64,000 bases of DNA from Tubulanus polymorphus (Eukaryota; Nemertea; Palaeonemertea; Tubulaniformes; Tubulanidae), in NCBI RefSeq assembly GCF_964204645.1, contig NC_134025.1, forward strand, positions 21,358,001-21,422,000, written 5' to 3'. Of the stretch, positions 1,753-31,266 are shown piece by piece. Position 1 is the stretch's first letter. Each line of letters opens with the position of its first letter. The notes beneath the pieces are model-generated. The model did no database searches. It was not told the origin of the DNA and saw only the letters and a list, made by a program, of their open reading frames with translations. The position numbers and the translations under genes are program-made.

Positions 1753-4700
1753 GTGCTTGTGTTATGTTTTGCCATGTTTATGGGAAGTTGGTCTCCGTCT
1801 ACGATCCTAAATATTGGTTATACAAACACGACGCCCGAATTAATGACAATACCGAAACAACGGCCATCCTTGGATCGGATAATCGGGCCGGATCTGAGAG
1901 ATCCGCGCACCGACGCTTACTCGACCCCGAACAGTAAGTATTTCGATATCGTTTATTGATACGGTTTCATTTTATTCACAAATGGAACCATTATCTACGT
2001 CCAAGGAAACTGACGTTAACGAGATGGCTATATTGGATTTAGTTTAATCTGCCTCGGTCTGGGTTATTTAGGTCGAACAACATATTCACAGCAATTCAGG
2101 GGCCACTTGCTCAAAAATTTATTAGAATTAACCAGTAGATAGTTGACATAGTGACAATTAAAAGTTCATTGTTACTATGGTATTTATCTGGGGCCAGTTG
2201 CTCAAAAGTTGGTTAGAGTTAACCAGTGGATAGTTGGCATAGTGACAATTAAAAGTTCACTGTTACTATGGTATTTATCCGCCGGTCATCTTTAACCAAC
2301 TTTTGAGCAACTGACCCCTGCCTGTTATCTTCAACCAACTTTTGAGCAACTGGCCCCTGGACTATGATTATATGATATTTATCAGCAATTCTGGACTGTA
2401 TATGATTTGATTCCATTTTAATGCGAATCGAATGTGGGCGTACTAAAAAGGAATGTTGAAATACCTGATTTCTATAGTGCGTTGTACCACCAACATTCCT
2501 CTATAGTAACTTTTAAAATTTAGCGATTATAGCTGGATAAAGATATTAAAACGGTGGTTGGTGCGTTTCCTTGATTTTGTTTGTGTATATTTGTGTGGTG
2601 GGTGATCAGGCGTCATATACAGAAACACTGCATGTATTATCATCTATCAGTTGCACACGGGTTGGTTATTTTAATAAACACTGACACGAAAAACTAGAAC
2701 AATCAAAGGATTAAACCATGCTTTACGAGATAGATAGGGCTATACGGCGAGCGATATGTATTACGAAGATATGGAACCACGTGTGTTCGGATAGCAATGC
2801 GACGAACATCTGTGTCGTTCTCTCTCTCTCTCTCTCTCTCTCGGTAATTCGTACCCACGCAGCTGTCTAAGCGCCGTGTATACATATCTCGCTGCATTTG
2901 CATATCGGATATTTTTACGACGAATTTCACTCCGTCGTCTGAAATATGGTCAACGCCGCGGACACATGTGCTTATACGTACATGTGTGCGGGCTACGAGA
3001 ATTAATCATATGTCGTTTGTACTCTCGCGGTTTCATCGCGATCGCGTGTTCCTAATGTTAGTTCAACATTTACGGGTATTGCTTCGGGAGAAAATTATCG
3101 ATAAAATGCGCTTGGAACGCTACCATATTGCTGTCGAAATAATTAGATCAACGTCTTTTGTATAGTTCAGCCTAAATTAAACCTATTTGCGGTACTGGAA
3201 TGCGACTTATAAGCTTTGAAGAAAATATAAATCTAATCAAATCTGTTGAAAAATGGGTCTGAAAATCTTAATATAATGGGTGAATCGGTGGTAAATCCTT
3301 CAGCAATTAAGATTATTTCCATGGAGCCAGGGTCAACAAGTTGTTCAAATATTGTTAGCTGATTCAAATTTCATCTTGATAGTACTCGGTGAAGCCTTGT
3401 TATAACGATTTATTGATTGTTACAAATTCAATTGAATGATTTCATACCAGATATATGATGAACTATCAGCCGTAACAAACAGAAGTTGGTTTCCTGAAGT
3501 TCCTTGCAACGAGGTTCTATTTTATGAAACATTAATTCTAACTTCGATTTGATTTCGAAATCTTCGTCGACAAATGATTTCATTCGGAACGTAAAAAACG
3601 ATTTTGACGTCAATGAATTGATTCTCCCGATCCTTAACTATAACTTTTACTCCGCGAGTTTTGCTATCTGCGGTATTTGATTTCGTTTTAGTCGGATGGG
3701 ATTGGGTATTGATTAATACTAATCATTTTGATACCGCGTCGAGGCGCATGAGGGAGTCGCCGCGTTATCGCCAGCCATTTGTGGGTTAACAGATGGTTTC
3801 ATTCGCGTTAACTGTCGCAGCTGATGCAATCTATGTTGCGCGTGTGTTCGAATTTCACGAATTAATTTCATATATCGATCTCATTGTTTGCCGATAATTA
3901 CGCTTTCGTATGAAAAAATGAAAATCAAGTTCTAGCTGTATTCGAATATCTAGACGAAAATAGTATATTCAATTCTATATCAGAATGTTATTGTGTTTTT
4001 GGTAAAACTCACTTAACCAATTAGCACTCAGGAATTTCACAATGTAGTGTCCATTACTCCCCAGAAAATTCAAGGGAAAATCACAAGTTTATCACCATAC
4101 AGAATAGTTTATTTCTAGTCAGTTCATGTACAATAAGTTCATGTCATTTTGTAGTAAATAGTCAAGGCTTTCATATGATATAATATTCGATAAGGTGGGC
4201 CACCAAAATCGTGACCTTTTGGCCCCCGATATTCGCCCAGACTTACGGTACTTGGATGTGAGTGCTCTGATCTGTCGTGTTCATACTCCTAATACTCGAG
4301 AATTGAAAATAGGAAGATGTTGATTTCTGTACGGTATTTCGAGGACTTGGGTCTCTAGTTTATCATAAGCTTTTGGCCGAGTCAGATGGAACTAGACTGA
4401 TGTTTTATGAGCCATCTCGCTTGAAAACATTTTTAAGAATCCCGAGTCAGACATAGGTAATATGGAACAAATTGCACGGACCGGTACCATTGGCTGCTTT
4501 ATTTTTGCTTAAATGATTTTCCCTTAATCTTAACGAAATCGGGAGCAAATATCCTGATATCCAAATAGATCAGATTTTAGTATTCTTAGTTTCACCAGTC
4601 TATATCATCTTTCGATTACTTGCAGAAAGGTCGCGTGTCCTCTTGTCGATGATGGAAGATTTAGAAGATCATAGCTTGTACGAGCCGTACGGACCGAACA

Positions 4701-13012: not shown

Positions 13013-14375
13013 CTGGGCAAATGCTGCACATAAGCGGGCAATATTCCATGAGAACATTAGAATACCTGCAGTATCTTTACCCCAGCTGCCTCCTTGTGGC
13101 GCACAGAACTGCTTATCTGTGGCCTTGGAGCAAATAACTGAAATTAAATGAAGTTGATATTCCAGATTTCGGTTATTTATTTTCGGTGAACACCACCTCT
13201 AGAATTAAGGCTAAAACGAGAGATGCATATAATGCTTGTTTTCTTGTAGTAACCTGCATCATTACTTACTTCCACAATCGGGTTTTCGGAACCATTTTTG
13301 AGGAAAACACGCACATTCGCATGTATTCGGGTCCATGGGTGCTCCATTGAGACAGACTTTTTGTTGACAATCTGGATAAACGGAAAATGGTGAATGGTTT
13401 TTCAGGAGCCGCAAGAGTATCCTATACGATAAGCATTTCAGGGCATTATTTTTTGTTTTGCATGCTCATTCATTTCGTTTTATTTTAAGACAAGAACAAT
13501 CTAACCGAGATAGAACAAATACCCCTCAGTTCAGAAAAACTTACCGCATAAACCATTTTCAACCTTAGTATCGGGGCATTTCGAGCCTTGAGGACCTTCT
13601 TCGCATGGTTTTGTTTAGCCTTTCGAATTACCACTAAAAGTACCTAATTCTATCATATTCACCTCATACGTCGTAATTTTGCATTTACAGATTAAAGTTT
13701 ACGTTGGTCACTTACGCTCGTCCATAGTTGCACGTATATGCATTTCGTGGGCATTGGGCATTTCGCGAAACCACAACCAAGTCTAGTCGACGTCGTCACC
13801 CAAACGACCTAGTTACGTACACATGATTTTAGATATTAGAAATTCTTTCGTTTTCATCGATAAATCGGTTTTGTTATTCTGGATCAAACTGCAATTTGTG
13901 CAGACCTGTGTAAAATGACCGACCACGCCGCCTGTTGAACCAACGCCATACTTGAAACGTGCTTCTTCGCTAAACCAATAGTTAATAACGCTAGTCCAGG
14001 AGAGATATTCTGCCCGAGAGTGATTCGACCTTGAAACATTTCACATCTTTGCACCAAAACATTGTAGTATGTAATTTTTATGATTTATCACGGCCCATCA
14101 CCGGGAAATTGAATATTATTCTACGATTAAAACTAATACAAGCAATTCCTACTACTACGTATTGCTTTGAATCATAGAATTGGGGCGCATCTGACCTGGA
14201 ACATTTCTGTTCTTATTTGCATCGTGCACAACTTTACACGAATCGGCTAGTTTCTGGGCAATCATCGCAACTTCTATGTCCCAGTACTGCGTCAAAATTT
14301 GAAAAAAAATTGTATACACTGATGATTTTTTCTTGTATCCGCAAATAAAACGTACCAATTTCATCATTTTCGCAG
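13013..14375 (-). pseudogene. CAP/EGF/ShKT gene copy E, 3' part (exons 4 to 10), disrupted
   Basis: Minus-strand relics of exons known from genes A and C: exon 10 ShKT module 13013-13137, exon 9 EGF-like 13270-13371 (still open), exon 8 13545-13633, exon 7 13716-13808, exon 6 13906-14029, exon 5 14196-14286 (still open), and the end of exon 4 up to 14375. Lesions: a TAA inside exon 8; a 1-nt deletion in exon 10 beside the third Cys; a 2-nt deletion in the second CAP signature of exon 7; a net 13-nt loss in exon 6. Exon 4 is broken by the 10.8-kb gypsy-type element, and its remainder continues at 25189. Several independent frame breaks make this a pseudogene and not an assembly error. It is the most diverged copy of the cluster. 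Confidence 0.88.
14372..14375. repeat. Target-site duplication GCAG, left copy
   Basis: GCAG abuts the 5' LTR here and the 3' LTR at 25189-25192. Removing the element and one copy restores a sequence resembling exon 4 of the intact paralogues. This fixes the element borders. Confidence 0.8.
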
Positions 14376-14975
14376 TATTGGAGTAATAAATTACCTATTT
14401 AGACAGTGGGAAATAAGCCGGAGTTCAAGGCAGTAGTTGCGGTTAGCAGGCGACCTACGTGAATACTTACGTCACACATAAGAGAGAAGCATAGAAGATA
14501 GGTGAGAGTGACGTGGGTGTCTACGTGGGAAAGCTTGTTATAGCAGCAGCCTTGAGCTCTGGAAAGTTGAGTTATAAATTTAGCGCTCGTGACGTATAAC
14601 ACACGTAGAAATGATTTACATGGCCAGTAGGACTGTAGTAATAGAATAAGACGTCTCTGGCGATGAGGCCAAGCGGTGTGGAAATATACGTCACGAGCGA
14701 AGGAAGAATAAGTATAAAAAGGGAGGGTTTTAATGCAGTGGGGTCGAAAGCTTGGTCGGTAGAGCTGGGTCGGTTGAGCTAGTGGTTAGAACTAGAGGGG
14801 ACGTGCTAGGAAGATTGTAAGAAGAGAGTATAAGAATAAAGATCTGGATCGATAGAAGAAGCTAGTTGTAGTTAATTTATGAGAAGAACCCCAAGGAACT
14901 ACGCTGGTGAAACGCAAACAACGCAGGTGGTCAACACACGTCACCCGGACACTGGGAAAGAGGACCCCCACAACA
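14376..14975 (+). repeat. 5' LTR of the gypsy-type element
   Basis: 600-bp direct repeat matching 24589-25188, starting TATTGGAGTAATAAATTACC and ending CCCCCACAACA. A TATAAAA box lies at 14713-14719 and an AATAAA at 14835-14840, marking the likely U3/R area. Confidence 0.95.
14713..14719 (+). promoter_or_regulatory. LTR TATA box
   Basis: TATAAAA about 120 bp before AATAAA inside the LTR; the same motif is at 24926-24932 in the 3' LTR. It probably drives genomic transcription of the element. Confidence 0.6.
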
Positions 14976-14976
14976 C

Positions 14977-14994
14977 TGGTGGAGAATAGCGGCA
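14977..14994 (+). other. Putative primer-binding site
   Basis: Begins TGGTGGAGAATAGCGG one base after the 5' LTR. A leading TGG pairs with the CCA end of a tRNA primer. The tRNA species was not identified. Confidence 0.5.
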
Positions 14995-15072
14995 GAATTC
15001 CGGTCTCGCAGCCAAGCTAGTGGTGAGTGATATTATACAAAACTTTGAATCGATTTATAAAAACTCTGGTTT

Positions 15073-16086
15073 ATGTTTTATAACCAACCCGTTAAACGAA
15101 AAGCACAACTGTTGGGGATGGCAAACGCGGGACAGCAACCGGCCGTGGGACCAGCCAATCCGGCTGTAGGACAAGACGACGACAATGATAGCGACGATGA
15201 AATAATCATTGTCCCGAAAGGCGTAAGCGGGCTGAAACCAGAACATTTTGACGGAACAAACGATCCGGAACCATGGTTAGACGCATTTTTACAATACGTA
15301 AAACTCATGGCATGGAGTGACCGTCAGATACTGAGGAGCTTTCCCTTGTTTTTGAGGGGAGAAGCTCGCTCTTGGTATTTAGGTGTCGATAAAGATAAAA
15401 AAACGCGTGTGGAATGATTTATTACAAGCGTTTAATCAGCGATATAATAACCCGGATCGAAAAATGCTAAAAACTCACCAGCTGAAACACATGCGCATGG
15501 TTTCAGGCCAAACAGTAGACAATTTCGCAGACGATGTTAAACGGAGAGCGAATGAATTGGAATTACCCGCGCATGTGACGTTGAGTACGTTTATTGACGG
15601 TCTCTCCGCGGACATTCGCAAAATCGTTTGGACGCAAATGCCAGAGGATCTGGACAAAGCCATCAAAATGGCTAGTAACGTAGTCCAGATGTTGAAACTA
15701 GATGGCCCTGGTGTTCATCAAGTCGAGACAGCCAACGCGGAGTGTGACGAACTGAAAACAAGAATAAATCAGCTAGAAATTAAACAACGAAAGGAGGAGA
15801 CGATGGCACAGGAAAGTCGGGCTCTTTTACGGGAATTCAACGACCGTTTGAAGCGATTACGTACGCGCGAAATGGAGCTACAAACAATAGATTTCGTTAC
15901 CCTACGTTTAGAGGTCGATGTTACAGGTGTAACATAATTGGACATATGGCTAGAAATTGCAGGGGGCCAGCGAAATCTACCTTTGCAACGGAAAATAGAA
16001 ACATCATTTGTTATCAATGTGGTTTACCTGGACATATTAGCAGATATTGCCGTCGGAATACGAATCGACAACAGCGGACTAATTAG
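15073..16086 (+). pseudogene. gag: gag of the gypsy-type element (two frame breaks)
   Basis: The reading runs in one frame from the ATG at 15073 to about 15405, in the +1 frame to about 15850, then back to the first frame to the TAG at 16084-16086. Retrotransposon-gag hallmarks include FDGTNDPEPWL and GEARSWY, followed by the helical capsid-like part (DNFADDVKRRANEL), a charged coiled-coil stretch and two CCHC zinc knuckles: CYRCNIIGHMARNC at 15919-15960 and CYQCGLPGHISRYC at 16009-16050. The N-terminus has an acidic patch. The first break coincides with seven A residues at about 15398-15405, so a one-base homopolymer error or a real +1 shift are alternatives to decay. In this family Gag forms the particle and packages RNA. 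Confidence 0.85.
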
Positions 16087-16149
16087 GGCTGTAGCAAGGA
16101 TGGCTTAGGGTAGCTGTCCAGAGCTATACAAACAGAGAATGCCCAAGTA

Positions 16150-19077
16150 TTGTATGAGGTAGGATCGGGGATAACGGGGGATAGTGGGCGCTCACAGACA
16201 AAATTGAAATCTCACAAACAAAACTTGACAAAGCAGAAAATTTTGAAAGAAAAACCAAAAGTATTATGCTCTGAGCACCCGCTATCCTTAAATTGTGTTA
16301 TTTTTGATGAACGGATGGATGTTTTGATTGATACAGGAGCAACTCGAAGTGTCATATCATATGAATACTTTTTAAAATTAAGATCCACGGTATTAGTAAC
16401 GCCGTTAGAATATGACGGTTATAAATATGCTACGGTAGCTGATGGGGGTACATTAGAAATATTCGGTATTGTTAAATTAAATCTTAAAATGGAATCAAGG
16501 GTTGTTACGCAAGAATTTCTGATATTAAGGAAATTGGCTCACCCATGTATTCTAGGCATGGATTTCATTAACAGTCAGGGTGTGGTTATTGACACTCCGA
16601 GAAAGCTCCTACATCTGTCATCCGGTCACTCAATACCTCTTCACGAGGGGGCAAAGGTACAATTACAAATTTGTATAGTAGCTAACGATACGGTCACAAT
16701 TCCGCCTGGTACACAGGTGCAGATAAAAGCAAAAATGAAGGGGACGGGAAGAAAGGACGGTGTAGGTTTTGTTCAACAGTCAGCTAGATTATGGGATAAA
16801 TATGGTATTATGGGTGCGGCTAGTATATCTAATATTAAAAGTGGGGTATTACCTGTGCAAGTTTGTAATCCATCAAATTATTCAAAACGGTTAAAAAAGG
16901 GTGCCATTTTAGGAGATGTTACTCTCATCGATTTAGATGCTCCTATCGCAGACGGGTCATATATGACAATTGATAGTGAAGGTATTTCCACGCCTCAACC
17001 TGAAAATCAAAACGATATATTAGATAGTGTGGAAACGGGAGACATATCGGTACAGCAAAAAGCTGATTTAAAATCATTATTGGAAGAATACAGAGATAGG
17101 TTTGCAGAAGGGATATTGGAGTTGGGAACCGCAAAGGGGGTTGAATGCAATATTGAGACTGAAAATGAGGTGCCTATTCGGTCACGACCATATCGGGTTC
17201 CATTAGCGTTGAGGGATATTTTAGATAAGCAGATTGATGAACTTAAAAAGCAAGGCGTTATTGAAGATTCAAATTCAAATTATAGTTCTCCCGCACTTTT
17301 GGTACCAAAACCAGATGGGTCATATCGATTGTGTATTGATTTTAGGCGATTAAATAAGGTATTAAAATTGCAAACGTTACATCCAATACCTCATATCTTT
17401 GACACCTTAACTATGTGCGGCACCGCTAGGCCAAAAATATTTTCTTCTCTAGATTTAAGAAGTGGTTATTTTCAGATCCCGATTTCACAAGAGTCTCGTC
17501 ACAAAACGGCGTTCGTAACGCCTACTGGTCATTACCAATTTACTAGATTACCCATGGGCATAGCATCGGCCCCTAGTATTTTTCAATCCATTATGGCTCG
17601 CCTCTTACATTCATTAGGACACTCTGTTTTGGTTTATTTAGATGACCTTTTAGTATTTTCTACGTGTTGGGAGGATCACTTACAACATTTACGCCAACTT
17701 TTTGAAAGATTACGGGTGGCGGGGTTGACACTTAAACCCAGCAAATGTTTTATTGCTCGACCAAACTGTAAGTTTTTGGGTTTCTATTTAGACGGGGATG
17801 GCATTAGAACTAATCCCGAGAAAGTAAATGTGATTCGAAACTGCCCTGTGCCTACAAATCAAACTCAAGTTCGGTCTTTCCTAGGGGCTGTTAATTTCTA
17901 TAGAAAATTCATTAAGAACTTTTCGGGGCGGGCACGACCATTGACACTATTGACGAGAAAGGGTATACCATTTCTATGGTCTGACGATTGTCAGAAAGCG
18001 TTTGATGACTTGAAACAGGCACTTATAACAGCACCCGTGTTAGCATATCCTTCTCTGGAACGCAAGTTCAAGGTTCACTGCGACGCATCAAATTTTGCGA
18101 TGGGATATTGTCTTGTACAGGAAGGAGACGACGGTCAAGAACACGTAATTGCATACGGTGGACGAGCGCTAACAAAACAAGAACAAGCATATTCCGCTAG
18201 TGAGCGGGAGTGTCTGGCGCTCATTTCAGCCATTAAGTATTATAAAGTATACCTGTATGGAAATCCTTTTACGGTGGTCACAGATCATAAAGCACTGTTG
18301 TGGTTAAAAAAGATGGAGGTCGATGGTCTCGCCTCAGGTCGGCTACAACGGTGGTGCATCTTCCTACAAGGATACCAATATGACGTTGAGTATCGGGCAG
18401 GAGTACAACATGCAGATGCGGATTTCTTGTCTAGATTAAGGTATCCAGAAATAGTGGCTGTTGACACAGGTAACGACGATATCTTGGTGAATTTGCCTAT
18501 GGAACAACGTAAAGATAATGAGTTACGACCTATCATTGATTACCTATTAGACGGATCATTACCAAAAAATGATCGTTTGGCACGACGAATAATCTTGTCG
18601 CACGAAAGGTTTATTCTGGACAACAAGGGTAGTCTTCAATACTTGCAACATTTAAATCGCCGCCAATCTGCTCACTTCTCTCCTTGCTATGTGATACCAA
18701 AACAACTTCGCTTACAAATCCTGCAAGAAACACATGAGGTTTTTGGAGGACACAGTGGCATCAAGTCAACGTATATGCGTCTGAAAAATAGGTATTATTG
18801 GAATGGTATGTTTAACGATGTAAAGGATTTCTGCTTACGATGTAATGTCTGTCAACGGAAAGGGTTGTCTGCAAAAGAGGCTACTAAGGTTCCAATGCAA
18901 ACGGTACGGGTGGAGCCAATTTTCCATAAATTTGCTATGGATATGGTGGGTCCCTTTCCGGTGTCTGACAAGGGGCATAAATATGTGTTGACATGTATTG
19001 AAACTTTTTCATCATATATGGAGGCATTTCCGCTTAAGACGGCATCGGCAGAAGGTTGGTGGATGGTATCATTTTGA
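16150..19077 (+). CDS. pol: pol: protease, reverse transcriptase, RNase H, start of integrase
   Basis: 975-codon open frame in the same frame as the last part of gag, behind stops at 16084-16086 and 16111. Order of domains: aspartic protease with LIDTGATRS at about 16324; reverse transcriptase with YLDDLLVFS at about 17634 and the LPMGIASAPS primer-grip area at about 17550; RNase H with KVHCDASN (about 18070) and TDHKALLWL (about 18280); integrase HHCC finger (HEVFGGHSG ... CLRCNVCQR, 18733-18860); and the first catalytic Asp in FAMDMVGPFP. It copies the RNA genome and prepares it for integration. The frame is lost at about 19050 just after the first integrase Asp, where a few codons seem to be missing; the rest of integrase continues in another frame from 19056. 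This start is not proven, because Pol is normally made as a Gag fusion. Confidence 0.93.
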   Translation: MYEVGSGITGDSGRSQTKLKSHKQNLTKQKILKEKPKVLCSEHPLSLNCVIFDERMDVLIDTGATRSVISYEYFLKLRSTVLVTPLEYDGYKYATVADGGTLEIFGIVKLNLKMESRVVTQEFLILRKLAHPCILGMDFINSQGVVIDTPRKLLHLSSGHSIPLHEGAKVQLQICIVANDTVTIPPGTQVQIKAKMKGTGRKDGVGFVQQSARLWDKYGIMGAASISNIKSGVLPVQVCNPSNYSKRLKKGAILGDVTLIDLDAPIADGSYMTIDSEGISTPQPENQNDILDSVETGDISVQQKADLKSLLEEYRDRFAEGILELGTAKGVECNIETENEVPIRSRPYRVPLALRDILDKQIDELKKQGVIEDSNSNYSSPALLVPKPDGSYRLCIDFRRLNKVLKLQTLHPIPHIFDTLTMCGTARPKIFSSLDLRSGYFQIPISQESRHKTAFVTPTGHYQFTRLPMGIASAPSIFQSIMARLLHSLGHSVLVYLDDLLVFSTCWEDHLQHLRQLFERLRVAGLTLKPSKCFIARPNCKFLGFYLDGDGIRTNPEKVNVIRNCPVPTNQTQVRSFLGAVNFYRKFIKNFSGRARPLTLLTRKGIPFLWSDDCQKAFDDLKQALITAPVLAYPSLERKFKVHCDASNFAMGYCLVQEGDDGQEHVIAYGGRALTKQEQAYSASERECLALISAIKYYKVYLYGNPFTVVTDHKALLWLKKMEVDGLASGRLQRWCIFLQGYQYDVEYRAGVQHADADFLSRLRYPEIVAVDTGNDDILVNLPMEQRKDNELRPIIDYLLDGSLPKNDRLARRIILSHERFILDNKGSLQYLQHLNRRQSAHFSPCYVIPKQLRLQILQETHEVFGGHSGIKSTYMRLKNRYYWNGMFNDVKDFCLRCNVCQRKGLSAKEATKVPMQTVRVEPIFHKFAMDMVGPFPVSDKGHKYVLTCIETFSSYMEAFPLKTASAEGWWMVSF

Positions 19078-20141
19078 GATATGGGATGTTTTCTACTATA
19101 CTTACCGACAATGGGTCAAACTTTATCTCAAAAGTCTTTCAACGAACGGCCATCCTCTTGGGGGGTAGAACAAAAACTACGTCCTCATATCATCCACAGG
19201 CGAATGGTGCTTTAGAAGTACAACATAGACAATTAAACAAATCAATAGCTAAGTTATTAGATGGACAAAGCCCGGGAAAGTGGGACTTATATCTGCAATC
19301 TGCGGTATTCGCAATGAATTCCTCAAATAATATCAATTCGACGTCATTCACGCCTTTTGAAATTGTTTTTGGGCGGATGCCTAAATTGCCCATGGAACTA
19401 GCCATATCAGCTCCAAAAAATGAATATGGGTCTCATGTGGCCTATTTTCAACACTTAATTAAGAAGATGGATATAGTACATGACATAGTTCGTAAGAATC
19501 GGGAACTGAGCAAAATAAAAATGAAGCAGCAGTACGATAAAAATGCTAAAGATATTCAGTTTGAAGTGGGGAGTAAGGTTTTTCTTTATTACCCACATTT
19601 GCCTACTGGGGCATCAAAGAAATTACATTCATTTTGGCTGGGCCCATATGAAATTATTGAAAAAATAGGAGAAGTTAATTACAGATTGAGAACGGATGAT
19701 AATCGAAAGGTTAAAACATTAGTTCCTGTAAATAGGTTGCGTCCGGTTTATGAATCTAAAAAACCGCCTACTTACGACTTACCGCAGACTATTGAAAAAT
19801 TAGATGACTTACCAGGGAACCTCGCCATGGATGAAATCGTTTTGCCCCATAAGAGTCGCCATGTCAAAATCGGCATGACGCCCGCAATTGAACCTCCTAC
19901 TTTGACGCAGAGGGACATGACGTTATCGAAGGGTCGCGAAAATATTGACGGGAAAGACGAGTCGATATACACTGTGTCTCGAATACTCAAACATAGAAGA
20001 CGGGGAGGCAGGTTGTATTATTATGTCGCCTGGGAGGGTTATACGGATAAGACTTGGGAACCGGAGGAGAATTTCTTGGATAGGTCGATCTTGACGGCAT
20101 ATCATCAGAAAGCCAAGAAAAGACGGAAACGACGTGCATAG
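19056..20141 (+). CDS. pol: pol, C-terminal part: integrase core end and chromodomain
   Basis: Continues integrase in a shifted frame: second Asp in LTDNGSNF (about 19100), then the catalytic Glu region (GALEVQHRQLNKS, about 19207), the GPF/Y-like module (FWLGPYEIIEKIGEVNYRL, about 19632), and a chromodomain (about 19968-20085) with YTVSRILKHRR, YYYVAWEGY and TWEPEENFLD, ending in a basic tail KKRRKRR. Chromodomain integrases (chromoviruses) steer insertion toward methylated histone H3. The 21-nt overlap with the upstream frame shows a small deletion or error, not a natural gene border. Confidence 0.92.
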   Translation: MVDGIILRYGMFSTILTDNGSNFISKVFQRTAILLGGRTKTTSSYHPQANGALEVQHRQLNKSIAKLLDGQSPGKWDLYLQSAVFAMNSSNNINSTSFTPFEIVFGRMPKLPMELAISAPKNEYGSHVAYFQHLIKKMDIVHDIVRKNRELSKIKMKQQYDKNAKDIQFEVGSKVFLYYPHLPTGASKKLHSFWLGPYEIIEKIGEVNYRLRTDDNRKVKTLVPVNRLRPVYESKKPPTYDLPQTIEKLDDLPGNLAMDEIVLPHKSRHVKIGMTPAIEPPTLTQRDMTLSKGRENIDGKDESIYTVSRILKHRRRGGRLYYYVAWEGYTDKTWEPEENFLDRSILTAYHQKAKKRRKRRA

Positions 20142-20281
20142 GATATTTGCCACGCACCCAACAGTTGTTGCGAAATTAATTAAGGATAATAGGAGAAATG
20201 AGTATGAGTATAAAGTTGCTGTGTTTTAAGAAATTGTTAGGAAATCAAGAAGTTATGATTTAAAATGTTGTTTTAGGAACC

Positions 20282-21391
20282 ATGGTTCGGAGTATAGTTC
20301 ATATCATTATGATTTGGTCGTGGATAGGACCAATGGCTGCATGGGATGCAGAGCTACGGATGGGGGCTGGAGTAGTGTTCCAGCCAGTTGACGAGATAAA
20401 TGTAGCAGCAACAAAATGGGAACATAGTGTTATGATTCCTTTAGTAGATGTTTCCCGGTTTTCGATGACAATTCCTAATATGACGTGTGGAATGCCCAAT
20501 GCCGAATGCCGACAAATAGAGAAAATGTTTCGCCTAATGCGTTTGCGTAAAATCCGAGCTGATCAAAAATTTAACAGTTCCAGGCGTATGATTGAATCAT
20601 TATTACCTGTTGAAATTCCGAGTACAAGAAGAGAAGGCCGTATGAAACGAACACCACTATCATTCATCGGAGATGTCGCCAGTTTGATTTTTGGGGTCGC
20701 CACTACTGAGCAGTTACAAATAGTGGAAAGACATATGAATAAGTTTGATGCATTACAAAAATTAGATCATAAAGCTATTGTCCAGTTACAAGAACGGTTA
20801 ACTAGCTTTGCCAACGTAACAGATTCTAGATTTAAGTTAGTCAAGTCTCTAGTACGACAAAACAGAGATTATATGTCAAAACTTTCGGAATTCGTTGTAA
20901 ATAATACTATGAATCAGGCTCGTTTACAGGCAAGGGTACATGCACTATCATACGTAGTGCGGTATTCCATTAATTATGGGGATGTTATTGAGGCTATCAG
21001 CAGCCACATGGCCGCGTGGTTGCGCTCCACTAACGTTTTACTATCAAATAGACTACCTGTAGAGTTAATTCCGGTAACAAGTCTCCAGGAAATCTTATCA
21101 AAAATTCGCGTTACATTGAAGAATTTTTACCCCATGTTTGAGCTGGCACATCAAACCCCGAGTTATTATTATTCGCACGCGCGAACGTTTATGGGCGGCC
21201 ATTCCCGCCAAAAATCAGCGTTTCGTCTATTTTTCTGTACTTCGACAAAATGTCATAGTACACCGCCAAAATGTGTTAGCGTAACGTCGAATTGTGTAAT
21301 GCGGCTAAATAACACAGGAGGGCGACACTGTACGGACAGTATTTTGCGGTATTTTTCTCGCATTGCGATCATCTCAAGGTCGTTTTATTGA
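20282..21391 (+). pseudogene. env: env-like (fusion F type) glycoprotein, N-terminal part
   Basis: Starts with a hydrophobic leader (MVRSIVHIIMIWSWIG). A basic furin-type site (RREGRMKR) at residues of about 118-125 is followed by a hydrophobic, fusion-peptide-like segment with FIGDVASLIFGVAT, then a long heptad-like helical region. This order is what errantiviral env and baculovirus F-type proteins show. Near the 3' end the frame drifts into Cys-containing sequence that looks shifted, and the membrane anchor lies in another frame from 21483. This copy therefore cannot encode an intact protein as written. I assign it by architecture, not by an alignment. Confidence 0.7.
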
Positions 21392-21482
21392 AATAATTTT
21401 GCGATTTTGCTATAAGCCGTGACAAGCGTATACAAGTAGGTCCGATTATTTACGGTCAGAAATTAGGGGGACACATAGTTCT

Positions 21483-22154
21483 TTGAAAATCGGTGGTTAT
21501 ATTCTGATTTCGTTAGTAATTGTGGCAATAATAGTATCGGCGGTTTTATGCAAACGATATGAGGCATGGGCGGCGGCAGGGACCGCTTTAACAATGGTTA
21601 AAAGTGTAGAGGCAGGGAATTTGGACATAATTCACGAACAGTTGGATATTGACTTGTCTGCGATTAGGAAGGCATCGGAAACCTTGTTAGATTGGGAGGC
21701 TATAATTGAATGGGCAGTTGTAGGTATGGTCGTATACTCGACACTGCGGTATTTTTTTACTGACGGGTGGCGGTTTATGAGTAGACGTCGGTGGCAGATA
21801 TCATTAGCGTCATGTTCCTCTCCTAGGCTGTCTGCAGAGGTCTTAGCCGAAGTTTAAAATCATGATGGGGCGTCGGCTGTTTTACATTTAGGGTTCGTAT
21901 CTCCTCATTTATGGGAGGAAGTCAAGGCCGTCCAGCCGTTGGCAGAGATTAAGATCAAAACATACGGACCGTTGGTTGCAATCAATGTTACATATGATAA
22001 AAATACCCCTTGCACGAACTGCTTCATTAAAACAATTTACGCCAGTCGGCTTTTCAATAAGCCGCTAAGGAGATTGTGTAGTGGGGAAATTTTTACTAAA
22101 TTTTGGATGGTGCATCAGCGGGATGCAGTCTTAATGAGTGACGACCTCCCATAG
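21483..22154 (+). pseudogene. env-like region, membrane anchor and tail
   Basis: Open frame with a strong transmembrane helix (IGGYILISLVIVAIIVSAVLC) right after its start, then a tail that includes a second hydrophobic segment (IIEWAVVGMVVYSTL). A TAA at 21855-21857 interrupts it, and the same frame stays open again to 22154 with a short Cys-containing segment (TPCTNCFIKT). It most likely is the displaced C-terminus of env plus an extra tail or small accessory product. It is not translatable as one protein as written. Confidence 0.5.
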
Positions 22155-22709
22155 AGATATGGCGGCCAGCCTGTCTATAGCGACTCTTCGCCACAAATAG
22201 CAGTACATGTTATCCCTGCCTAGACTACGGATGAATTTGCTTTCTGAGGCAATGGGTGGGGACTAGCGGCTGACATCTCGGCGATTCGGATGTATCTGAT
22301 CAGTATATCCATTTTTGCATAAATTTCGGCTCATCTTTATAAAATGCACTTAGAAAATTATTATGGAATTATTCATTAATTGTTGAAGCTGTCTGTTGCC
22401 AACATGTGCTGGGCACACGATAATCAACTAAATGATGTACTTGGCATCAGTATTAATTTACGTCGTTGATTGGAGTCGGGACAGGTTGGACAAACCATCT
22501 TAAACGGTTAAAGATCGAGGCGGTCAGTGTATGGAAAGGGAGAGGAACATAATAAAAAAGGGAAACTTTCGGTGTATACTGTTTTAATAATGCTTACTTC
22601 AAAAAAAAGGGGAAGAGAAGTTGGTGGTTTTGTATCTAACTAAATTTGTATTATCATACTAAATGTGGTATAAAAAGAAACGAACTCCAGTGAGTGTAAA
22701 TAGATCTGG
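22155..22709. other. Untranslated internal region of the element
   Basis: No sense or antisense open frame of note between the env tail and the last putative exon of the antisense gene. Confidence 0.5.
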
Positions 22710-24153
22710 TCATTCTTCTCGTTCTGAAATATAGGATTTGTATTTGCATAAGTTTTTTTTTTAATTCCCATATGGTTCATATTGTAATTTCTCGGACTGA
22801 AATACGAATTTGTTATATTTGCTTGTATATTTTATAAAATTCTTACCGGGTTCGCTGCCACTGGAATTTGTAGGTGAAGGAGGTGGGAAGTAGCTAGCCA
22901 GCGACGGCAGGGAGCTGGAGGAGCTGCTTGCAGAAGGGCTAGCAGGGGTATCAGGGATGTGAAGGATCGGATATCGGGAATGGGGACCAGGTAAGAGGGG
23001 GGAATCAGGTACAGGAGGGGAATCGGGAACTCCAAGTGATAGGAGGGGGTGCTGAGAAAGGTCGAGAAAAGGAGTTGGGTTGGGAGAAGAGGTACTGGGG
23101 GATGGGGACATGCGGTTATAGGGTGGAGGTTGTGGCCCCAGACCGGAGGGCGAGGGGTCCACGCTCTGGTCTGTGGGCGCGTTAGTACGACGGGAATAGG
23201 GATGCATGCGGAGGGTGCCGCCGCTTGGTTGCCCCCTTCCCGTGCCCCTTTGCCGCGCCGTATGTTTCCCTCGTGTTGGGGATGGGGTGGATGGAACTGG
23301 GAGCCCTGCGTAAATAGACAATATATATAGAGGTAACATGTGGAATTGTGTTCGTGGCGTTGCCATAGTATAATTATTAGCATTAGAACATATAACTAAT
23401 GGTATACGCAATAAATAAATAAATACGTATGAACTATGGTTGTAAAGAGGGATATATATAATGTATACCTGAAAACGCGGCGCGTAAGTCGTCGGTGGCA
23501 GCCCGAATTATGTTTGATAATTGTTGTCGGTTGCCTGCGTTGCAAAAGTATATTAGAAAAAGCAGTTATAAATTGTTTTTTTTTTGGTACATAAAATGAA
23601 TTAAGAAGTCTTACCGGGCTGTGCTAGAATAAAGCCATACAGCATGTGTAGGACCGGTGAGGCTGATATAAAAAACAAAATATGACAGGATGAGATATAT
23701 ATGTTGTTAATTTTGAGGTTTCTAATTTTATATACTTCATGCTTTGAAGCACGGTATTCGTACGTTGCCGTACAGTACCTTGGTAGTGCTGATTAAAATT
23801 AAAAAAAAAAAAAAAAGGGATTGTATATATAAAAGTATTGTTGCATAATATAATACAACGGTAATGAAATGGACTGAAGTGCAATTAACGTTTTTACAAT
23901 TAGTAATTATAGTTACATGACTAACATTGTTAAAATTCAAGGTTTTTCTGGTATTATATTGTTCACATTTTTAGAAATAGCGCATGGGGTAATAGATCTT
24001 ATCAGGGGCGATGTGACCGTTTAAAATAACAAAGTGCAAGAGTGGCGCATAATGTATTATCGCATGTAATGATAAAACTGTACAAAATGGTTGGTGTGTT
24101 AGTTTATAAGTATTCAAAATAAGTTGCTTACCGAAATACTCTATCGGGTCCAT
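22710..24153 (-). CDS. Antisense, apparently spliced proline/serine-rich gene within the LTR element
   Basis: Proposed exons on the minus strand: 24132-24153 (ATG at 24153, MDPIEYF), 23615-23662, 23469-23534, 22847-23305 and tentatively 22710-22723. Every join uses GT...AG and phase 1, and the five pieces total 609 nt, an open frame of 202 codons plus stop. Donors: GTAAGC, GTAAGA, GTATAC, GTAAGA. Acceptors: TTTTATATCAG, TTGCAACGCAG, TATTTACGCAG, CTATATTTCAG. The large exon encodes a Pro/Ser-rich, low-complexity region (PPPYNRMSPSPS, SASSSSSSLPS) with a basic stretch (RGKHTARQRGTGRG). Exon 3 looks helical (NIIRAATDDLRAAFS). No known family is recognised. The gene lies between env and the 3' LTR, opposite to gag-pol-env, like the antisense genes of some retroviruses. 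The last exon is uncertain: the fourth exon could instead read through to a stop at 22761. No transcript evidence is available. Confidence 0.5.
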
Positions 24154-24572
24154 TGTGAATGATAATCCGGATGGTAATGAGGGTTTAGTCTTTATGGCGG
24201 ATGGAAGTAGAATGTTTCAGAGATGGGGATTTTACTCAGTATCAAGGGTGACTTTTTGGCCAGGTGTACTGTTATTGTTGCTGGTCAGGAAAAAATAATG
24301 GGTTTTTTTTCTCTTTCTACCATCCAGATGTTGAAAATTTATGTGCGTCAGTTGCAAGATTGTTGTATCATTTATCATAAAGCACCATTTTTATTGCCTT
24401 ACGGTGAAGTTCAAGAGGTAAAAGTTGTTAAAAAAGAAAAACAAAAAAGAAAAAGTTGTTTATGGAAGTAAGGGGTACTGATTTTGCACTATTGCTAGCT
24501 ACGGCTCTTTAAAAAATCTTTGGAAGTGTAAACGGGCTTCAGTATTTTTTTGGCGATTGGGGGTCCAATCGT
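24154..24572. other. Region upstream of the antisense start, including a degraded sense frame
   Basis: Holds the space where an antisense promoter and 5' UTR would lie. On the plus strand, fragments of protein-like sequence in two frames (for example HPDVENLCASVARLLYHLS near 24320) are interrupted by stops, so a broken sense accessory frame is possible. Nothing firm. Confidence 0.3.
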
Positions 24573-24588
24573 CTGGAAAGGGGGATGG
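24573..24588 (+). other. Polypurine tract
   Basis: GGAAAGGGGGATGG lies directly before the 3' LTR, as expected for the plus-strand primer of reverse transcription. Confidence 0.7.
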
Positions 24589-25188
24589 TATTGGAGTAAT
24601 AAATTACCTATTTAGACAGTGGGAAATAAGCCGGAGTTCAAGGCAGTAGTTGCGGTTAGCAGGCGACCTACGTGAATACTTACGTCACACATAAGAGAGA
24701 AGCATAGAAGATAGGGGAGAGTGACGTGGGTGTCTACGTGGGAAATCTTGTTATAGCAGCAGCCTTGAGCTCTGGAAAGTTGAGTTATAAATTTAGCGCT
24801 CGTGACGTATAACACACGTAGAAATGATTTACATGGCCAGTAGGACTGTAGTAATAGAATAAGACGTCTCTGGCGATGAGGCCAAGCGGTGTGGAAATAT
24901 ACGTCACGAGCGAAGGAAGAATAAGTATAAAAAGGGAGGGTTTTAATGCAGTGGGGTCGAAAGCTTGGTCGGTAGAGCTGGGTCGGTTGAGCTAGTGGTT
25001 AGAACTAGAGGGGACGTGCTAGGAAGATTGTAAGAAGAGAGTATAAGAATAAAGATCTGGATCGATAGAAGAAGCTAGTTGTAGTTAATTTATGAGAAGA
25101 ACCCCGAGAAACTACGCTGGTGAAACGCAAACAACGCAGGTGGTCAACACACGTCACCCGGACACTGGGAAAGAGGACCCCCACAACA
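24589..25188 (+). repeat. 3' LTR of the gypsy-type element
   Basis: 600 bp, differing from the 5' LTR at about four positions by eye. TATAAAA at 24926-24932, AATAAA at 25048-25053. Followed by the GCAG target duplication at 25189-25192. Confidence 0.95.
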
Positions 25189-26945
25189 GCAGCAGCTGGT
25201 TGGTGTAAATTAATGCCGACAATTATAGTTTCCTTCGATACCAGAACGATTAAGAAATTGAAAATATGGACGGTTGGAATTACTCGCCGCAAGTCAACAA
25301 CAGTAAATGAAAATACAGAGATGATATTGTATTCTTCATCACTTCATCATACGTCAAGGTCACCAATTAGAATAGTTACCGAAAAGTGGTTTCATCGCAC
25401 TTAGAATGTATATAGCCAGTCAGCACAGGAAATAATCGAAGCAGAAGTACTTAAAACTGAGATTTATATCTACGAAGACTGTCACCAACTGTAGGATGTA
25501 CAATTAAAACGGTCTTTTTATCAGGCGTTCGACAATTTTATAATTGTGACAAGCAATGGCAGATACAGCTTACCTCCTGTAGAAGCAATAGTTATACGGT
25601 TTGATATGTATGGGAAAAGATATTGTGTGTGCAGTGTGCACGATAGCGCACACTAGATGTGTGCTGCGGTGCGCACACTGAATGCAAATGGCTCGGGTTA
25701 CAAGAAGGGAGTATGTTGATAAGCATGAGCAATATGTAAGGACTTTTAAGGGATGATTAGTGTAGTAAAGTCTAAGGTTTTTGGTTCAGGGGGAGAACAA
25801 AAGAGAGTACAAAAGAGTACATGAGAGAGATAGTACTAAAAGAGAGTTGGGGAGATAAAGCTGAATAGATGGCGTAAGCAGTAGAGAGAAATGAAGAAAA
25901 GCTTGATCATACCAGATGGAAGTGTTAGTACATGTAGTTGATATCTACATAAGGAAGAGGCAGGTCAGCGAAAGGAACCAGTTACATAGAAGATCCAACG
26001 GCACAGCATTAGTGAGAAGAACGAGGTGACATAACAGTGGTGGAGGTGGTAGTCCCATTACAAGTGGTGGAAAGCGTAGTACCATTACACTCCCATGCCT
26101 TCCGGAAGGCAAAATAAATTTCCAAAATGCCCTTTTAAAATCAAAGTAGTAGAAATTTCGCTTTGATTTTTTGTGTTTCAAGCTATTGGAGTTTTTAGCA
26201 TTTTCAAGCTATTGGAAACCTCTCAAATAGCATCTCGGACCTCAATTTTTCAAGTTTTCTTTTGGGAGCACCCTCAAACCGACAGATATTGGCTTGGCGC
26301 CTACGCCGCTCGCATGGCACGGATCGTCACGTTGTGTTACATCTCTGCCTTTTATTAATAAACAGCGCCCTTTTGAATTTGGAAAGTAATATAAAAAATC
26401 ACCTGGATCCGCCCCCTGACAAGAACGTCGGACCTTATTCACTAACGTCATGCAGGTATGCTTGGATGATTTGAGCTGCGAGACCATTTGCGATGAAAAT
26501 CCTTTTGCGTTGCGTGTTATTCACATAAGTCCTCGCAAAAACTGATTCACAACTTTTCACACAACGGGAACCAGTCCAACCATTTTGCAATATAAAACAA
26601 ATCATTGCAAATGTATCTTTATATCAAAGCTGGATTCCTGTGGTGAACTCATTAAAAACGATTTGCATTTGATTTGATTTATCACCGGAGAAACAATTAT
26701 TATATTTTCATTAACGTGACATTTCGCATACTTATCATCAAATTATTTAGATAGATATAGATTCCATGATGTGGGATGACCGTACGTTTTCTAGTGAATA
26801 AGGTCACAGAATAACTAAAACAGTGATTAAGTTTTAATGGGAATCAATGTGACAAATATTCAGTGGGCAGAACAATATTGATCATGTGATGGAAGTTCCA
26901 CAATTGCTAACAGTAACAAGAACCACGAAGAGCCAAAATAGCCAT
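25189..26945 (-). pseudogene. CAP/EGF/ShKT gene copy E, 5' part (rest of exon 4, relic of exon 1)
   Basis: Directly after the GCAG duplication the sequence reads, on the minus strand, like the Q-P-A-A segment of exon 4 in paralogues A and C, and decays within about 60 bp. At about 26898-26945 a stretch matches the signal-peptide exon of genes A to C (compare 56352-56403), but its donor GTAAG is lost and the frame is shifted. Exons 2 and 3 could not be found. Together with 13013-14375 this is one old gene split by the LTR element. Confidence 0.7.
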
Positions 26946-28076: not shown

Positions 28077-29024
28077 ATGAATTCAACTCGGATGCAAATC
28101 GGCAGAACTTACAACAGTTACATCGTTCTCATGTCTGCGGTGAACAGGTCTGGTATCTACCGTACTGTGACATTGGTCATTCTGCCTGTTTGGTTCTTCT
28201 TAGGAGCCTTCGGAAATTCAGCTACATTCCTGATAATGATAAACCGCAGATTCCGTAATTTATCTTACGCTAACTATCTTATCGCTTTGTCAGTTAGCGA
28301 TTCTATATGCTGTATCAATTTTACTCTGATGCCTGTTTTACAGTTTTTCCTCTCGCATCTGAACAGTCGCTCAATATTTGTGATAGATTCAGTCATCGGT
28401 TGTCAGATATATGAATTTGTGATGGCGCTTGCAAACTGCAATAGTTCGTGGTTAATAGTAGCTATCTCTCTAGAACGCGCGGCAGTTGTGCTCTTCCCAT
28501 TCACATCTCGCTTGATATGTACACCGAGATTCGCTAGATCTAATATATTGATAATTACTGCTGTGAATGCACTTTTTATATTTCTCACACCTGCTTTGTC
28601 GATACATTTTACTGACCAGTATTTTGGATGTTCCTATGAATTATTGGATCAAATAACATATTTTTTGGCATTTGTCATCCACGTTTTCGTGCTGCCTCTA
28701 ATATATATTATAACATCAAATTCTGTTATAATAATTCAGCTATTCAGAAGTTCAAAAATGGTTTCGTCTGATCAGAAAACTACAAAATCAAAACGTACAA
28801 CAATAATGCTTGTCACAGTTTCACTCGCATTTGCATTATTCTTACTTCCATCCGCTGTAGCTTCAGTTTTACCAATCTCACCGTTGCTGGGAGAATTTCT
28901 ATATGACATATTTATTCAATTTCAAGTATGTAACTATGTGGTAAACTTTTACATATATCTATTACTGGGAAAAGAAATTCGTGAATATTTTTGTACGAAA
29001 ATACGGTGTAGAGGTATTAAGTAA
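28077..29024 (+). CDS. Rhodopsin-like orphan GPCR (intact, single exon)
   Basis: 315 residues with seven hydrophobic segments. Extracellular N-terminus with NST and NRS glycosylation sites; TM1 with GNSATFLIMI; TM2 with LIALSVSDS, where the Asp of class A receptors sits; Cys at the start of TM3 (GCQIYEF) and in the second loop (FGCSYEL) for the usual disulfide; the TM3 end is LERAAVV in place of DRY; basic third loop (TTKSKRTTIM) before TM6; TM7 reads NFYIYLLLG in place of NPxxY. C-tail is short. The coding region is intronless. About 70-80% of residues match a second gene at 59431-60381, so it belongs to a local family. Peptide-type receptors of invertebrates have this look, but the ligand cannot be inferred. 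The start Met is shared by both genes. Confidence 0.9.
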   Translation: MNSTRMQIGRTYNSYIVLMSAVNRSGIYRTVTLVILPVWFFLGAFGNSATFLIMINRRFRNLSYANYLIALSVSDSICCINFTLMPVLQFFLSHLNSRSIFVIDSVIGCQIYEFVMALANCNSSWLIVAISLERAAVVLFPFTSRLICTPRFARSNILIITAVNALFIFLTPALSIHFTDQYFGCSYELLDQITYFLAFVIHVFVLPLIYIITSNSVIIIQLFRSSKMVSSDQKTTKSKRTTIMLVTVSLAFALFLLPSAVASVLPISPLLGEFLYDIFIQFQVCNYVVNFYIYLLLGKEIREYFCTKIRCRGIK

Positions 29025-29440: not shown

Positions 29441-29802
29441 ATTTAACAACACTAAATGTCACTGATAATTGTTATACATATTTCATCTATATTTCGTATT
29501 TCTTTATTGTTTTATGTCTCCATCTTATTACTCATTGTCCTCTGAGACTGTTTGTCTGTGTCAGAATGTGTTAATTGTTGTTTGTCTCACTGTCATGTCA
29601 CTACTCGTCACCTTTGTTTTTGTATCATTTTCCATGTCTCAACCTGTCTGAATCTGTGTGATATAAATAGCTATGTGTAAAAATAAAGTCAGTTCCAGTT
29701 TTGGTATTCCAAACTGATAGTTCGCTCGTTACTCTTTCGCTCTGTTCCGGATTTCCGACGTCGACCATTCTTCGAGAATAGGACAGAAAATAGCGTTGCT
29801 AA
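29441..29802 (+). repeat. 5' LTR of the small LTR element
   Basis: Contains ATATAAATAG (29661-29670) as a TATA box and AATAAA (29682-29687). The LTR does not begin with the usual TG: it starts ATTTAACAAC, with TGTCACTG only 16 bp in. The border is fixed by comparison with the 3' copy. Confidence 0.9.
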
Positions 29803-30904: not shown

Positions 30905-31266
30905 ATTTAACAACACTAAATGTCACTGATAATTGTTATACATATTTCATCTATATTTCGTATTTCTTTATTGTTTTATGTCTCCATCTTATTACTCATT
31001 GTCCTCTGAGACTGTTTGTCTGTGTCAGAATGTGTTAATTGTTGTTTGTCTCACTGTCATGTCACTACTCGTCACCTTTGTTTTTGTATCATTTTCCATG
31101 TCTCAACCTGTCTGAATCTGTGTGATATAAATAGCTATGTGTAAAAATAAAGTCAGTTCCAGTTTTGGTATTCCAAACTGATAGTTCGCTCGTTACTCTT
31201 TCTCTCTGTTCCGGATTTCCGACGTCGACCATTCTTCGAGAATAGGACAGAAAATAGCGTTGCTAA
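30905..31266 (+). repeat. 3' LTR of the small LTR element
   Basis: Matches 29441-29802 except for one G/T change (CTTTCGCTC against CTTTCTCTC). TATA at 31125, AATAAA at 31146-31151. Confidence 0.9.

Follow-up and report, generated by a model that had tools for sequence, protein, structure and literature searches.

Does the DNA between the env-like gene and the 3' LTR of a retroelement in the nemertean Tubulanus polymorphus encode, on the strand opposite to gag, pol and env, a spliced protein-coding gene, and what would such a gene do for the element that carries it? A sequence-only reading of the stretch of 64,000 nucleotides that was analysed, here called the window, had proposed a gene of five exons at this place. 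Our comparison of this gene with its copies and relatives in the 268-Mb assembly indicates that it is very probably a real spliced coding gene, and it is likely, if with somewhat less assurance, that it is an accessory gene serving the element.

The host of the gene is a chromodomain Ty3/gypsy element with an env-like gene. It spans positions 14376 to 25188 (about 10.8 kb) and has the following parts:

14376..14975, plus strand: 5' LTR, 600 bp; the local alignment of the two LTRs has four mismatches and no gaps
15073..15937, plus strand: gag, in the window copy as two overlapping frames (15073-15417 and 15383-15937)
16150..20141, plus strand: pol with protease, RT, RNase H, integrase and chromodomain, in the window copy as two overlapping frames
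20282..21857, plus strand: env-like gene with a basic cleavage-type site, a fusion-peptide-like stretch and a later hydrophobic segment
24589..25188, plus strand: 3' LTR, 600 bp, with five TGACGT (CRE/ATF-like) motifs

The element is flanked by a probable 4-bp target duplication, GCAG, at 14372-14375 and 25189-25192, from which we infer the exact start of the LTR. The second gag frame matches Retrotrans_gag (E 3.2e-6, above the cut-off) and Ty3_capsid (E 1.1e-4, below the cut-off), and the first has no significant Pfam match. The Pfam matches of pol, i.e. gag-asp_proteas, RVT_1, RT_RNaseH, Integrase_H2C2 and Chromo (the last in the second frame, E 7e-10), follow each other in the order PR-RT-RH-IN with the chromodomain after the integrase, as in the chromovirus type. 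For the env-like gene, we presume the nature of the cleavage-type site and of the fusion-peptide-like stretch; the gene lacks a significant match in Pfam (best E 0.29 and 0.22), its matches in the PDB are at chance level, and its ORF has no homologue outside the host genome at E up to 0.001. The sense genes of the window copy are not intact: gag and pol each extend over two frames (in three other copies, pol is a single open frame of 1355 aa), and a repeat with related sequence at dozens of genomic places breaks up env (21192 to about 21408).

This repeat often occurs as inverted pairs about 1.2 kb apart and could be the end of a DNA transposon or a MITE. Other env-like sequences, 20-34% identical to the env of the window and with frames of up to 909 aa, are present at dozens of places in the genome; several of them adjoin pol matches, which points to a wealth of env-bearing elements in this single genome. 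Elsewhere in the window there are two ORFs of rhodopsin-family GPCRs, one of them at 28077-29024, and near the latter a direct repeat of at least 300 bp (29441-29740 and 30905-31204, 100% identical, 1464 bp apart) that is probably a recent local duplication. A 123-bp repeat (13264-13386 and 33480-33602, 80% identical) flanks the region of the element.

The antisense gene is made up of the following parts, which are given together with their counterparts in the divergent relatives L053, L054, L055 and L057 described below:

24132..24153, minus strand: exon 1, 22 nt, with the ATG; 22 nt and the donor GTAAGCAA in the window, L053, L054, L055 and L057
23615..23662, minus strand: exon 2, 48 nt in the window, L053, L054, L055 and L057
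23469..23534, minus strand: exon 3, 66 nt; 66 nt in L053 and L055, 60 nt in L054, 70 nt in L057 (frame broken)
22847..23305, minus strand: exon 4, 459 nt (453 nt in L053), with the basic patch, an HPYSR motif and the Pro/Ser-rich body
22710..22723, minus strand: exon 5, 14 nt, ending in ...EREE and the stop; 14 nt in L053 (...EQEE, stop) and in L054, not located in L055 or L057
24131-23663, 23614-23535, 23468-23306 and 22846-22724, minus strand: introns 1 to 4, GT-AG, phase 1

Every base of the proposed model, five exons on the minus strand starting at the ATG at 24153, could be confirmed, giving 202 codons followed by the TGA at 22712-22710, and the same is true for its four GT-AG introns, all in phase 1. 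The statement that stops are present in the introns and absent from the joined exons holds as well: retention of intron 1, 2, 3 or 4 alone brings in 5, 2, 4 or 1 in-frame stops, and the spliced frame is open. The gene indeed lies in the interval between env and the 3' LTR, opposite to gag-pol-env, and its product is, as had been described, rich in Pro (19%) and Ser (17%) with a basic patch in exon 4. This product of 202 aa has a net charge of 0 and consists of a conserved N-terminal segment (exons 1-3), the basic patch with HPYSR, the Pro/Ser-rich body, which is taken to be disordered and has two conserved short hydrophobic motifs (PFLDLS and LPSLAS), and an acidic end. The GC content is 61% in exon 4 and 24-29% in the introns. 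If a strict donor is defined as an exonic G followed by GTAAG, GTGAG, GTATA or GTAAA, there are four in 22640-24200 in the antisense direction, which are exactly those used in the model, and another four in the sense direction.

The spliced ORF alone is modest, even weak evidence that is not far above chance. A spliced ORF of at least 202 codons is possible in 7 of 230 random 1.56-kb segment-strands of the window and in 4 of 182 outside the element, these segments overlapping each other and in part including real genes. Moreover, the longest spliced ORF that these splice rules permit in this region has 298 codons in antisense, more than the proposed model, as against 52 in sense. The case rests on the other copies.

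Searches with the exon-4 protein brought to light, in addition to the near copies discussed further below, the relatives L053 (C10; match to the exon 4 of the window with E 2.2e-5), L054 (C6), L055 (C12) and L056/L057 (one place, C7). The gene in L053 is open and has 200 codons in exons of 22, 48, 66, 453 and 14 nt, all in phase 1; the lengths equal those in the window save for exon 4 (453 vs 459 nt). Of 183 aligned residues, the two products share 92 (50%), and in the segment encoded by exons 1-3 they share 23 of 43 aa (BLASTP E 8e-15 as a single comparison). At the level of DNA, the exons are 0.59-0.79 identical (a range given without shuffle control), and introns 1-4 have identities of 0.81, 0.71, 0.65 and 0.72, which is 0.01-0.04 above the shuffle mean (10 shuffles each). 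A model-free comparison of 101 stop-to-stop frames with L053 gave antisense exon 4 (E 9.7e-31) and exon 2 (E 3.2e-8) as the best matches, followed by the sense-strand shadow of exon 2 (E 3.6e-6). With the low-complexity filter on, the exon-4 match was lost and exon 2 was best at E 1.1e-6; the similarity of exon 4 depends partly on low-complexity sequence.

The dN/dS value of window and L053 is 0.21 at a dS of 2.4, where synonymous sites are saturated; the values are 0.32 for window and L055, 0.39 for L053 and L055 (109 codons), 0.26 for window and L054 (43 codons) and 0.12 for L053 and L057 (23 codons). Between L053 and L055, the introns (0.79-0.89) are as alike as the exons (0.77-0.81). Exons 1-3 and their splice sites are kept in L054, L055 and L057, though these genes have decayed: exon 4 has a frame break in L054 and is gone after 191 nt in L055, and the frame breaks in exon 3 in L057. 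Conservation beyond single copies is apparent from the open genes of two lineages, A (the window type) and B (L053), from the remnants of a third lineage, C, and from the dN/dS values. The exon structure and phases of the divergent relative together with the codon constraint between lineages support the gene as a probable coding one.

With a limit of E 0.001, neither the 216-aa ORF over exon 4 nor the alignment of the two products (the best 7983 candidates scored) yielded a homologue outside the host genome. The antisense product has no Pfam match at E up to 10, thus no bZIP and no other known domain, and chance-level matches only in the PDB. A single-copy relative in the host was absent from the genome searches with exon 4, exons 1-3 and 5 being too short for this purpose; one place outside the family was found at E 0.46. 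Among more distant elements, L064 and L066 have no match of the two products at E up to 1, and L063, beside a decayed pol, has one weak match (E 0.40). On the strand opposite to pol, L064 has a single ORF of at least 70 aa (73 aa, at 4278-4499). L066 spans 2.8 kb and may miss part of the 3' region, and three distant stretches are too few to generalise.

What do the nearer copies tell us about selection? The gene region matches ten main places in the assembly including itself (L001-L010): six A-type copies (the window and L002-L006), the C12 group L007-L009, which is about 10% different from A, and L010, which keeps exons 1-3 only. L002-L006 agree with the window in the ATG, the stop and all eight splice dinucleotides; L007-L009 have kept the ATG and the six sites of introns 1-3, but LTR sequence stands in place of the end of their exon 4. 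The frame is open in two of the six A copies, the window and L005 (with 1159 extra bases, all within intron 1), and broken in four, by a stop at codon 71 (L002), a 1-nt deletion (L003), a 5-nt insertion and a 17-nt deletion (L004), and a deletion of more than 100 nt in exon 4 (L006). The changes within A are distributed over the three codon positions as 10/7/3, i.e. without constraint, and the pair window-L005 has a dN/dS of 3.0 on 9 changes. The fixed differences between A and L007-L009 are distributed as 8/6/20 (chi-square p 0.006), the changes within L007-L009 as 8/5/12, and four pairs of A copies with L008 or L009 have dN/dS values of 0.27-0.33. These fixed differences affect exons (34/530) and introns (45/703) at the same rate (6.4%); the third positions change more than the introns, the first and second less.

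The comparison of copies and of dN/dS that the sequence-only reading had called for has two sides: constraint between lineages stood the test, both toward L008 and L009 and toward L053, but the youngest copies, with most A frames broken, gave no sign of it. Constraint is visible in the codon pattern only and between lineages only, and the nearer exons are not more conserved than the introns; it is from the codon pattern that we argue that the protein matters. We read this as a constrained gene in the replicating lineages, with dead copies decaying. Indeed, L007-L010, L054, L055, L057 and a remnant on C6 are truncated, decayed or partial. On C12, the region 6571000-6597200 (L055, L007-L009, L062) is an array with units about 10 kb apart, in which A- and B-type pieces of LTR and antisense gene are mixed.

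The gene is linked to its element. Wherever near-identical pol was found, at eight places (95-100% protein identity over at least part of pol, among the matches listed; 47 of 1284 candidates scored), there is also the gene or what is left of it, opposite to gag-pol and between pol/env and the 3' LTR, the position that defines the antisense additional ORFs (aORF-3R) of LTR retrotransposons. One pol segment on C6 is 79% identical in protein and 95% in DNA; the C6 element has exon 1 only, beside an LTR copy that is about 76% like that of the window, and is similar there to L054. On C4 (19.94-19.96 Mb), 14 kb separate the part with pol from the part with the gene. A piece of env adjoins the gene and an unrelated env lies in the interval; we infer that the two parts belong together.

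The C10 element, which carries the open B gene L053, is 95% identical to the window in gag-pol DNA, and its env is 99.7% identical over 651 bases and about 83% over the last part. Its A-like stretch continues to about 240 bases into L053, where identity drops, and its LTR aligns with that of the window in blastn over 68 bases only. Since the LTR parts of the C10 element are identical over 578/578 bases, it is probably recent. A departure of this element from the A type at 21191 was considered and rejected; the sequence from 21192 onward is the repeat inserted in the env of the window. The C10 element (L015 around 859) also lacks about 480 bp including the start of gag, as compared to 15024-15505 of the window. 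L062 on C12 combines a B-type LTR with exons 1-3 that are 98% identical to L053. Between lineages, gene and LTR diverge far more than gag-pol, and A, B and C are versions of an 'antisense gene plus LTR' module on a common body. The co-variation of gene and LTR does not prove that they interact, because one template switch during reverse transcription would link both physically.

Two further features may be relevant for the expression of the gene:

24389..24417, minus strand: 29-bp block common to lineages A and B, with an AATAAA/TATAAA-type stretch at its end
22583..22588, minus strand: ATTAAA hexamer about 122 nt past the antisense stop, a weak candidate poly(A) signal

The block is 89.7% identical in L053 and the near-identical L062, amid DNA that is poorly alignable, and aligns with L057; it was not matched in L054 and L055. 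It is a candidate for the antisense core promoter, or alternatively for an upstream splice donor. An ATTAAA or AATAAA hexamer follows the stop after 122 nt in the window, 58 nt in L053 and 202 nt in L054. This signal is weak, since chance alone puts such a hexamer in roughly one of three random 250-nt bins (71/209 and 67/209, by strand). The motif TGACGT stands out in the LTRs. The 600-bp LTR of the window has five (0.28 expected) and the 804-bp stretch with the B LTR of C10 has six (0.38 expected), and in both cases none of 500 shuffles reached these numbers. As counts without shuffle control, there are three in the 554-bp LTR piece of C6 and six in the B-LTR piece of C12. Since three more distant elements also hold TGACGT (L064, 6 in 5000 bases; L063, 5 in 5500; L066, 2 in 2800; again without control), the motif may need no antisense partner and may not be special to the family with the antisense gene.

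How does this gene compare to known systems? The env-bearing Ty3/gypsy elements of the errantivirus type are similar in their gag-pol-env order and, as we presume, in the basic cleavage-type site and the fusion-peptide-like segment; the element of the window differs from them by the chromodomain at the end of pol and by the antisense gene. The response elements in the HTLV-1 LTR are CRE-like. HBZ of HTLV-1 acts on CREB-2 at LTR response elements, and HBZ and the APH genes of HTLV-2/3/4 are likewise spliced antisense genes near the 3' LTR of an env-bearing element, as passages of PMC10186651 describe. According to the same passages, APH-2, 3 and 4 have no bZIP domain; HBZ has one, whereas the product of the window, with its five coding exons, has none (no Pfam match at E up to 10). 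The spliced and unspliced forms of HBZ differ at their 5' ends. The HBZ and APH mRNAs start in the 3' LTR; in the family of the window, the splice sites are conserved, and a conserved TATA-like block lies outside the LTR. Deltaretroviruses belong to a different class of retroelements, with a possible sequence relation to the gene of the window compared by Pfam only; the two may resemble each other in their way of working and are probably unrelated in sequence.

Antisense additional ORFs between pol and the 3' LTR are described, in passages of PMC7264820 and PMC11963269, for the plant elements Grande (gene23), RIRE2, Retand (ORF4) and PvRetro13 and for the fungal element Boty; that of Grande has its own upstream promoter and a nuclear product. 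These ORFs are like the gene of the window in position, orientation and presence in most copies. The latter has four introns, a place behind an env-like gene and a chromodomain element as its carrier, and may differ from the plant and fungal ORFs in these respects. The word 'intron' is absent from PMC11963269 and PMC7264820, which does not settle the splicing of the plant genes. The ORF of Retand carries TRP28 (PF04195), which the product of the window lacks at Pfam E values up to 10. Passages on elements of bdelloid rotifers (PMC5408684), on Troyka (PMC12440569) and on Odin (PMC9040795) mention no such antisense gene, and the open-access titles and abstracts searched contain no multi-intron antisense gene in an animal Ty3/gypsy element. 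Thus, antisense ORFs in LTR elements are known, and one with four introns in an env-bearing chromodomain element of this kind was not found in the open-access literature searched.

We propose that the antisense transcript would start upstream of 24153, either at the TATA-like promoter near 24389-24417 or inside the 3' LTR, would lose its four introns and would end past 22710. By analogy with HBZ and APH of deltaretroviruses, the resulting protein of about 200 aa may be a nuclear one that influences how the element is expressed, probably by way of CREB/ATF-type factors where the LTR has its TGACGT motifs. The parts of the product would fit a transcription-type adaptor, and the LTR carries the CRE-like motifs. 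Introns that are present in reverse complement in a sense RNA are not spliced. The introns of the gene would therefore survive retrotransposition because of their antisense placement: the sense genomic RNA carries their reverse complement, does not present them as introns and would remain unspliced. That the protein regulates LTR-driven expression is an idea we hold tentatively, as a real possibility that falls somewhat short of probable. For the complete scenario, a fast-evolving accessory gene that is spliced in antisense and exerts nuclear control over the element via CREB/ATF at the LTR, the arguments for and against are nearly in balance, with a slight tilt to the negative.

Other explanations have to be weighed against this scenario. 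A GC-rich block with fortuitous splice sites could yield such a frame by chance, as the equally long spliced ORFs in 7 of 230 random segment-strands illustrate, but the preservation of exon structure, phases and product in L053 speaks strongly against this, and so do the retention of exons 1-3, splice sites included, in L054, L055 and L057 and the first ranks of antisense exons 4 and 2 among the 101 frames, with exon 2 still best after filtering; we find this explanation hardly credible. Alternatively, a host gene might have been captured in antisense orientation by one element and carried along as a passenger without benefit. Its intron-bearing structure resembles a cellular gene, and transduction by retroelements has been described (in passages of PMC7264820). 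Such a passenger would hardly be expected to occupy one position in lineages whose proteins are about half different, and to show codon constraint between them, and searching the genome with exon 4 revealed no host relative in single copy (E 0.46 for the only place that is not part of the family). We consider this very improbable.

The most serious competitor is a real spliced accessory protein that acts outside transcription, be it in assembly or budding, in RNA export or against host defence such as small-RNA silencing. Fast change between lineages, with 50% amino acid identity beside 95% DNA identity in gag-pol, is what is expected of a protein that interacts with the host, and the env-like gene suggests an extracellular step, which would favour such a role. 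The product of the window contains PPPY at residue 105, which we take to be of the late-domain type, and YPIL at 157. PPPY is not conserved, however: it is absent from L053 and changed in L007-L009 (P105S, P106L, Y108H), and for this reason we rejected the idea that the protein functions chiefly through a PPxY late domain. Taken together, a role outside transcription is possible, if on the unlikely side. Finally, the antisense transcript might act mainly as an RNA, by interference or as a source of dsRNA or small RNA, with the open frame as a by-product. Non-coding antisense transcripts of micropia and other elements (passages of PMC7264820), the frequent frame breaks in recent copies and the equal difference of exons and introns between A and L007-L009 are in favour of this idea. 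It is at odds with the similarity at the protein level, the excess of third-position changes and the dN/dS values of mostly 0.2-0.4 between lineages, and also with the contrast between the introns of window and L053, which are near the shuffle level, and the splice sites, phases and protein ends, which have been retained. A function as RNA is therefore improbable in our view.

Returning to a nuclear regulator encoded by a spliced accessory gene, its widest form would be that an env-bearing chromodomain lineage, apparently of animals, independently evolved a circuit like that of complex retroviruses, in which a five-exon antisense product controls a CRE-motif LTR, gene and LTR evolve together as an exchangeable unit on a gag-pol-env body that stays the same, and the antisense placement lets the introns survive. 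As a whole, this is doubtful. A few vertebrate retroviruses are known to have regulatory genes in antisense, and plant and fungal elements have antisense ORFs to which no role has been assigned. A conserved antisense gene with four introns in an env-bearing Ty3/gypsy element would show that this strategy arose again outside the retroviruses, and it would be a clear example from nature of multiple introns that outlast retrotransposition owing to their antisense placement. Annotation that seeks long sense ORFs would miss such genes. Since there are two lineages with open genes, whose products are 50% alike and each of which has its own LTR, cross-specificity would be measurable in this family.
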